Assembly (NCBI GenBank): GCA_006226595.1
Contig: SBGP01000005.1
Coordinates: forward strand, 1 to 64,000
Origin: Deltaproteobacteria bacterium
Lineage (GTDB): Bacteria; Myxococcota_A; UBA796; GCA-2862545
Reading direction: 5' to 3'
DNA length: 64,000 bases
This document shows positions 2,061 to 3,903 of this stretch, in pieces. The notes below the pieces were generated by a model. That model saw only the letters and a program-made list of their open reading frames with translations, was not told the origin of the DNA and made no database searches. The stretch's first letter is position 1. Each line of letters begins with the position of its first letter. The position numbers and the translations under genes are program-made.

Positions 2061-2141
2061 ATGACGACGACCCACCAGGCCTGCACGCTTCCCACCGCCC
2101 CGGTGCACGCCGTCCTGTCCAACAACAACAACACCACCTGA
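2061..2141 (+). CDS. Asn-rich leader peptide of asnB
   Basis: A 26-codon reading frame starts at ATG 2061. It contains four consecutive AAC (Asn) codons at 2121-2132, then Thr-Thr and TGA at 2139-2141. It ends 61 bases before asnB, whose product makes asparagine. Regulatory codons for the end product shortly before the leader stop are the hallmark of amino-acid attenuators such as the his, thr, leu and trp leaders. The stop codon lies inside hairpin A of the attenuator that follows. No strong ribosome binding site precedes the ATG. The peptide itself probably has no function beyond ribosome stalling. Confidence 0.8.
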   Translation: MTTTHQACTLPTAPVHAVLSNNNNTT

Positions 2142-2196
2142 CCGTTGCCCGTCGGGTGAGCGTCCCTCTGGACCGCCGGCACGGCGGGCAGGAGGA
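2135..2196 (+). promoter_or_regulatory. asnB: putative asparagine-responsive translational attenuator
   Basis: Three exclusive pairings can be drawn. Hairpin A: CACCTGAC (2135-2142) with GTCGGGTG (2151-2158), 8 pairs with one G-U, including the leader stop. Hairpin B: TGCCCGTC (2146-2153) with GGCGGGCA (2183-2190), 8 pairs with one G-U. Hairpin C: CCGCCG (2173-2178) with CGGCGG (2182-2187), extended by 2163-2170 with 2189-2196 (one mismatch), which buries the asnB Shine-Dalgarno AGGAGG at 2190-2195. A and B share 2151-2153; B and C share 2183-2190. A ribosome stalled on the Asn codons would cover the left arm of A, allow B, break C and expose the ribosome binding site. No U-run follows C, so control is probably at translation. 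The pairings are seen; the mechanism is inferred. Confidence 0.7.
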
Positions 2197-2202
2197 GACG
2201 AC

Positions 2203-3903
2203 ATGTGCGGCATCTTTGCGATTCTCGACCACAGCGACGCGGACTCGGCGCGGGCCCTGGCGCTGACCCAGGCCCCGCTTCTTCGGCATCGCGGCCCGGA
2301 CTGGAGCGGCTTGTACGTGGACGAGCAGGTGGCGCTGGCCCACGAGCGCCTCGCCATCGTCGATCCCGCCTCCGGTGCCCAGCCGCTGACGAGCCCGGAC
2401 GGTGCCCTGGTCCTCGCGGTGAACGGCGAGATCTACGACCACCAGGTCCTGCGTCAGCGCTCCCCCGCGTATGACTTCCAGACGGCCAGTGACTGCGAGG
2501 TCCTGCTCGCCCGCTACCGGGACGTCGGGGAGGCGATGCTCGGCGAGCTTCGCGGCATGTTCGCCTTCGTGCTCTGGGACCGTGCGGCGGGCACGTGGAT
2601 GATTGCCCGCGACCCGAACGGCATCATTCCGCTGTACTGGGGCTGCGACGCGGAGGGACGAACCCTCGTCGCCAGCGAGCTCAAGGCGCTGGTGGGGCAC
2701 GTGGAGCGCGTGCACAGCTTCCCGCCCGGCCACGTGATGACCTCGGAGGACACGGCTCCGCGGCGCTGGTACCACCGGGTCTGGCATCGCGCGGCCAGCG
2801 AGCCTCTGCCCACGCGGGTCGGGCATCCCGACGGACTGCGTCAGGCCCTTGCGGACAGCGTGCGGGCGCACCTCATGTGCGACGTGCCCTACGGCGTGCT
2901 GCTCTCCGGCGGACTCGACAGCTCGGTGGTCGCCGCACTCGCCGCGCGCTTCGCCCGGGGGCGGGTCGAGTCCGGGGGCTCGGAGGAGGCCTGGTACCCG
3001 CGGCTGCACACCTTCTCGATCGGGCTCCGGGGCTCTCCGGACCTCGCGGCGGCTCAGGAGGTCGCGGATGCGCTCGGCACCGTGCACCACGGGTTCACGT
3101 TCACGGTGCAGGAGGGCCTCGATGCGCTCTCCGAGGTGATTCGTCACCTCGAGACCTTCGACGTGACCACGGTGCGGGCGTCGACGCCGATGTGGCTCAT
3201 GGCCCGCCGCATCCGTGCCCTGGGCGTGAAGATGGTGCTCTCGGGCGAGGGCAGCGACGAGCTGTTCGGCGGCTACCTGTACTTCCACAAGGCACCCGAC
3301 GACCGGGCCTTCCACGAGGAGACCGCGCGCAAGCTCGGCGATCTGCACCTCTACGACTGCCTGCGCGCGAACAAGTCGATGGCCGCGTGGGGGGTCGAGT
3401 GCCGCGTGCCCTTCCTCGACACCCGGTTCGTGGACTACGCGATGTCCATCGACCCCTCCGCGAAGCGGTGCGGGGGCGGGCGCATCGAGAAGGAACTGCT
3501 GCGGCGTGCCTTCGAGGGGTGGCTGCCGCAGCGCGTCCTGTGGCGCCAGAAGGAGCAGTTCTCGGACGGTGTGGGCTACGGGTGGATCGATGCGCTGCGC
3601 GACTTCGCGGAGCAGCGGGTGAGCGATGCCGAGCTCGCCGGGGCAGCCGAGCGCTTCCCCAGCGGAACGCCGCGGACGAAGGAGGCGTATCTGTACCGGG
3701 CGCTGTTCGAGTCGCACTACCCCTCGGCAGACGCCGTGGCGACGGTGCCCGTGCAGGACTCGATCGCGTGCAGCTCACCCGTGGCGCTGGCGTGGGACGC
3801 GAGCTTCCGGGCGAGCGCCGACCCGAGTGGACGCGCGGTCGCCGGCGTGCACGGCGAGTCGTGGTCGCCGGATCAGGCCGAGGTCCACGCGAAGATCGGG
3901 TAG
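2203..3903 (+). CDS. asnB: asparagine synthetase B (glutamine-hydrolysing)
   Basis: 566 residues, close to the usual 550-650 of AsnB. It converts aspartate, glutamine and ATP to asparagine, glutamate, AMP and PPi in the cytoplasm. MCGIFAILD exposes the nucleophilic Cys2 of the class II glutaminase domain (about 1-200), with the expected HRGPD and VNGEIYDH motifs. The synthetase domain carries the ATP-pyrophosphatase loop SGGLDSS at about 235-241, and later SGEGSDELFGGY and ECRVPFLD. AGGAGG precedes the ATG by seven bases and can be hidden in the upstream hairpin. The Asn4 leader implies repression by charged tRNA-Asn. The last 31 bases overlap the end of the convergent gene downstream. Confidence 0.95.
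   Translation: MCGIFAILDHSDADSARALALTQAPLLRHRGPDWSGLYVDEQVALAHERLAIVDPASGAQPLTSPDGALVLAVNGEIYDHQVLRQRSPAYDFQTASDCEVLLARYRDVGEAMLGELRGMFAFVLWDRAAGTWMIARDPNGIIPLYWGCDAEGRTLVASELKALVGHVERVHSFPPGHVMTSEDTAPRRWYHRVWHRAASEPLPTRVGHPDGLRQALADSVRAHLMCDVPYGVLLSGGLDSSVVAALAARFARGRVESGGSEEAWYPRLHTFSIGLRGSPDLAAAQEVADALGTVHHGFTFTVQEGLDALSEVIRHLETFDVTTVRASTPMWLMARRIRALGVKMVLSGEGSDELFGGYLYFHKAPDDRAFHEETARKLGDLHLYDCLRANKSMAAWGVECRVPFLDTRFVDYAMSIDPSAKRCGGGRIEKELLRRAFEGWLPQRVLWRQKEQFSDGVGYGWIDALRDFAEQRVSDAELAGAAERFPSGTPRTKEAYLYRALFESHYPSADAVATVPVQDSIACSSPVALAWDASFRASADPSGRAVAGVHGESWSPDQAEVHAKIG

Follow-up and report, generated by a model that had tools for sequence, protein, structure and literature searches.

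Known attenuators and the asnB leader

In the attenuators of his, trp, leu, ilv, thr and phe genes, a short open reading frame carries a run of codons for the amino acid whose synthesis the gene serves, and the RNA between it and the gene can form pairings that exclude each other. In Firmicutes, T-box riboswitches at asparagine genes bind tRNA directly and respond to tRNA-Asn charging. In ermC, a ribosome stalled in the leader open reading frame frees a hidden ribosome-binding site, and the stalling is drug-dependent. The leader-peptide attenuators named first, from his to phe, belong to Proteobacteria (Vitreschak et al. 2004, as cited in PMC2965389). Histidine leader peptides also precede hisS and hisZ in Firmicutes and are thought to be independent of the proteobacterial ones; translational attenuators such as ermC are named in the same paper (PMC2965389). 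Within Rfam 15 and the available open-access literature, no earlier description of an asparagine attenuator was found, and Asn leaders before asnB in Xanthomonadaceae and Bacteroidales are apparently undescribed so far.

The window analyzed here is a 64,000 nt stretch of contig SBGP01000005.1 (GCA_006226595.1) from a Deltaproteobacteria bacterium. Coordinates are window positions and the features given are on the plus strand. An open reading frame of 26 codons at positions 2061–2141, with the predicted translation MTTTHQACTLPTAPVHAVLSNNNNTT followed by a stop, precedes asnB. It starts with ATG at 2061, has four AAC (Asn) codons at 2121–2132, which are the presumed sensor, and then ACC ACC and TGA (2139–2141). 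The gap between this stop codon and the asnB ATG at 2203 is 61 nt. The sequence and the open reading frame call thus bear out a preliminary description of this leader. The asnB gene (2203–3903) encodes a glutamine-hydrolysing asparagine synthase B; in profile searches the protein matches NF006949 (PRK09431 equivalog) with 788 bits and TIGR01536 with 427 bits. The Shine-Dalgarno sequence of asnB, AGGAGGAG, was read from the sequence at 2190–2197.

The run of four AAY codons is found at five positions, i.e. four sites, in the 7.23-Mb genome. The leader is one of the four and the other three are all within long coding genes. The probability of such a run by chance in a given 200-nt stretch on one strand is about 5e-5. 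A likely promoter, read by eye, is at 2022–2051 and consists of TTGACA (2022–2027), an 18-nt spacer and CATGCT (2046–2051); a consensus promoter scanner made no call at 2022–2051. The two hexamers suggest a transcription start at about 2058–2060, which would leave almost no RNA upstream of the leader ATG. The same layout is found before 80 of 87 Xanthomonadaceae leaders.

The locus resembles the proteobacterial attenuators in having a short open reading frame with an own-product codon run and exclusive pairings between it and the gene. Unlike them, it would sense asparagine, its open reading frame is almost at the predicted transcript start, and it has no terminator, the Shine-Dalgarno sequence lying instead within the last hairpin. 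The hisS and hisZ leaders of Firmicutes also have a codon run, but these concern another amino acid and other genes and are transcriptional. The proposed switch and ermC share the freeing of a start site by a stalled ribosome, however ermC needs a drug and not the charging of one tRNA. A T-box and the window element would both respond to tRNA-Asn charging, whereas the T-box binds the tRNA itself. No Rfam 15 covariance model of a T-box, riboswitch or other RNA family matches in the window, and a T-box or riboswitch identity was rejected on this basis.

Alternative RNA pairings ahead of asnB

Three pairings, A, B and C, had been proposed between the leader and asnB, and folding confirms that they exist, that they are mutually exclusive and that C covers the asnB Shine-Dalgarno sequence. 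Hairpin A (2135–2158) pairs positions 2135–2142 with 2151–2158 in MFE folding of 2130–2202. Pairing B (2145–2191), the presumed on-state, excludes both A and C. Its core (2146–2153/2183–2190) has eight pairs including one G-U and extends to 2145–2154/2182–2191; a longer B is at the matching place in L005, a member of the same family. B begins 12–13 nt past the last Asn codon. Hairpin C (2161–2200), the presumed off-state, appears in both MFE and growing-chain folding. In the MFE structure of 2130–2202 it is formed by 2161–2164/2197–2200, 2165–2169/2191–2195 and an inner 2173–2178/2182–2187. The Shine-Dalgarno sequence lies inside C, which ends 2 nt 5′ of the start codon. The fold of 2130–2202 is unusually stable (z = −3.0; none of 200 shuffles was as stable). 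This is limited to 2130–2202, as the fold of 2061–2240 has ordinary stability (z = 0.3).

The preliminary description had also claimed that a stalled ribosome switches these pairings. In growing-chain folding the 5′ part of the RNA was masked to mimic a ribosome located at the Asn codons, while the 3′ end was advanced stepwise. With masking to position 2141, so that the left arm of A is covered, B has a probability of 0.98–1.00 when the 3′ end is at 2190–2199, and of 0.44 at 2202. If A is left unmasked, A and C are dominant once the 3′ end is near 2196, and at 2199 their probability is about 1.0. B therefore beats C during chain growth, which is in favor of the claim. Against it, C wins at equilibrium in every masked state when the RNA includes the first asnB codons, and 95 of 1000 dinucleotide shuffles give an equal or larger change in Shine-Dalgarno access (p about 0.1). 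In the unmasked state, 36 of 1000 dinucleotide shuffles also hide the Shine-Dalgarno sequence as well. The window folding taken alone is thus suggestive and no more. Since C wins at equilibrium and B only during chain growth, an A-B-C switch would be possible only kinetically, set during transcription. The view that B never beats C was rejected; in the longer RNA the left arm of B can also pair with asnB codons, and during chain growth there is a span in which B prevails.

Asparagine leaders in other lineages

A search of 379 genomes of the phylum Myxococcota gave 27 with a close asnB, and about 22 of the upstream regions are readable. Only two of these, the window and L005, display a similar leader, thus conservation of an Asn-run leader across Myxococcota, which the preliminary description had offered as a check, is poor and was rejected. 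L005, the sole relative for comparison of the pairings, has an asnB 68% identical to that of the window. Its open reading frame ends in NRNR and TAG, 57 nt before asnB, with only two Asn codons there and an uncertain start. Folding of L005 retains A-, B- and C-like pairings despite the changed sequence, with a B of 14 pairs; its Shine-Dalgarno sequence shows no clear switching. The sister gene L004 is without a leader.

In Xanthomonadaceae, 90 upstream regions were taken within the family of Lysobacter tolerans (L048), from the nearest asnB genes at 73% identity or higher. A short Asn-rich leader, for example one ending in VRANNNNRNNASLPRAGD and a stop codon, precedes 87 of the 90, a count that applies to that asnB clade of the Xanthomonadaceae. 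The leader is absent from more divergent Lysobacteraceae asnB genes (L015, L018, L023, L042, L049 and others) and from those of Rhodanobacteraceae. In L227 the Asn leader is also present but beyond the scanned stretch, a repeat having been inserted between leader and asnB; this is a long REP-type inverted repeat (GTCATTCCCGC...) located between the attenuator and the gene. L132 and L175 are the only two of the 90 without any leader, and G+C-rich repeats are found upstream of asnB instead.

An intrinsic terminator begins 21–39 nt past the leader stop in 80 of the 87, and the stretch that pairs with its left arm begins 10–14 nt past the last Asn codon in most. The antiterminator and terminator partners covary, e.g. 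CGCGGGC/GCCCGCG, GATGCGGG/CCCGCATC, GCAGGCC/GGCCTGC and AGCGGG/CCCGCT, so that the Xanthomonadaceae elements display pairings with compensatory changes. Own partners have a mean pairing score of 19.17, compared with 16.89 for between-species swaps (sd 0.23; highest of 200, 17.55), a test that takes no account of relatedness and involves several pair types. Of the 87 leaders, 80 have a −10-like hexamer 5–7 nt ahead of their ATG, against a background of 0.7% per position; thus these leaders are probably leaderless as well. Five members (L114, L115, L116, L118 and L119) keep the Asn leader and have a hairpin without a U-run about 90 nt before asnB. This hairpin overlaps a second one (CCGGAAGCGC/GCGCTTCCGG) just 5′ of the Shine-Dalgarno sequence, and the subgroup may represent a shift from transcriptional towards translational control.

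An Asn leader with a terminator behind it, as in most of the Xanthomonadaceae set, also precedes six of eight sampled asnB genes of Bacteroidales (five of seven readable genes of the L040 family, and L141 from the same order). In the L040 family the leaders, such as MFSPNTLFNNNNPVPD and a stop codon, are followed by GGAAAGC, which is able to pair with the left arm of the terminator downstream of it, GGCTTTCC...GGAGGCCTTTTTT. In L236 a terminator resembling that of Bacteroidales relatives is located 200–260 nt before asnB, and the leader is probably outside of the scanned stretch.

A tree of 71 AsnB proteins, labelled by leader presence, places the carriers in separate clades: the window with L005, the Xanthomonadaceae and the Bacteroidales. 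Well supported branches force at least four label changes, and the nearest AsnB proteins outside the window clade, from Rhodanobacteraceae and related organisms, are without the leader. Most simply, the leader arose independently in these clades; repeated loss of it is a less simple alternative. AsnB from two small archaeal genomes, L036 (Woesearchaeota) and L047 (Micrarchaeota), branches with myxobacterial AsnB, by either gene transfer or misbinned contigs.

Among 25 genomes checked, asparaginyl-tRNA synthetase (AsnRS) is above the curated cut-off in 23 and GatB in none. The AsnRS match is incomplete in G637, and G019 (81% complete, its asnB without a leader open reading frame) gives weak matches only. 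With AsnRS present and GatB absent, charged tRNA-Asn in the carriers would depend on free asparagine, which an Asn-codon leader could report; the pattern does not set carriers apart from non-carriers. At G000:C35:2073-2402, and also in G001, G004, G007 and G020, a frame of ~750 codons has a C-terminal part resembling GatB, which is probably the tail domain of a glutaminyl-tRNA synthetase.

Mode of control and alternative explanations

The window element is probably a ribosome-mediated asparagine attenuator of asnB. The nearly leaderless 26-codon open reading frame would be translated once the RNA emerges. With ample Asn-tRNA, the ribosome would reach the stop codon and depart; A could then form and keep the left arm of B occupied, so that C would shut over the asnB Shine-Dalgarno sequence, giving poor translation of asnB. 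With scarce Asn-tRNA, the ribosome would stall at the AAC codons and cover the left arm of A. The left arm of B would then pair just upstream of the Shine-Dalgarno sequence, C would stay open and asnB would be translated. We infer that the ribosome stalls, that B forms in the cell and that control is translational rather than transcriptional.

Several findings support an attenuator: the rare Asn-codon run exactly before an asparagine gene; Asn leaders before asnB in Bacteroidales (6 of 8) and in the sampled Xanthomonadaceae clade (87 of 90), the latter with covarying antiterminators; the position of B, which agrees with the spacing of most switching stems elsewhere (10–14 nt); the dominance of B to 2199 if A is masked and of A and C if not, with the Shine-Dalgarno sequence in C; and the presence of AsnRS without GatB. 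It is weakened by the count of two in about 22 Myxococcota, the lack of a leader in L004, the 95 of 1000 shuffles, the persistence of C in the longer RNA and the weak case of L005. The attenuator first proposed from the window therefore draws its support mainly from outside it, from the leaders and terminators of Xanthomonadaceae and Bacteroidales and from the covarying antiterminators and similar spacing of the former, while its conservation in Myxococcota is poor. Sequence comparison makes asparagine attenuation of asnB a well supported candidate for an arrangement that recurs across the three groups.

Control by hiding of the Shine-Dalgarno sequence, also part of the preliminary description, is plausible. 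A terminator scan of the window found no terminator-like site or U-run after C, ruling out an intrinsic terminator, and the Shine-Dalgarno sequence is inside C; a translational output would fit these two features and is the most likely one, although the Shine-Dalgarno sequence of L005 is not clearly switched. The Asn codons could instead be sensed with a transcriptional output, where transcription would be stopped before asnB either by C, serving as an atypical terminator, or by Rho on RNA free of ribosomes. In favor of this, U-runs follow the hairpin in the elements of Xanthomonadaceae and Bacteroidales, which look transcriptional, and hiding of the Shine-Dalgarno sequence in L005 is not clear. 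However, the missing U-run in the window and the end of C only 2 nt before the start codon make this unlikely.

Somewhat less likely still is a translated open reading frame coupled to asnB by reinitiation or by the opening of structure in passing, where the A-B-C pairings would be by-products of a G+C-rich sequence. Such coupling is consistent with the 9.5% of shuffles that reach the switch score and with C winning at equilibrium, but it does not account for the unusual stability of C, the retention of A-, B- and C-like pairings with altered sequence in L005, or a position of B that fits antiterminators elsewhere. A random, functionless Asn-rich frame before asnB is very improbable, for while the leader is rare in Myxococcota and the whole-leader fold is ordinary, there are only four such codon runs genome-wide, and Asn-rich leaders also precede asnB in two further phyla.

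The attenuator reading in its full form is that asparagine attenuation of asnB arose at least three times independently and that the window version is translational, with Asn-tRNA starvation at a nearly leaderless peptide freeing the asnB start through a three-way RNA switch; the chances of this are about even. If true, asparagine would join the amino acids whose synthesis is under leader-peptide attenuation. This control would extend to nearly all of one Xanthomonadaceae asnB clade and, separately, to Bacteroidales and one myxobacterial lineage. If the origins are independent, with two groups being transcriptional and the third probably translational, they would provide a good natural comparison of how such switches emerge, and the Xanthomonadaceae set is directly testable in cultured Lysobacter species.
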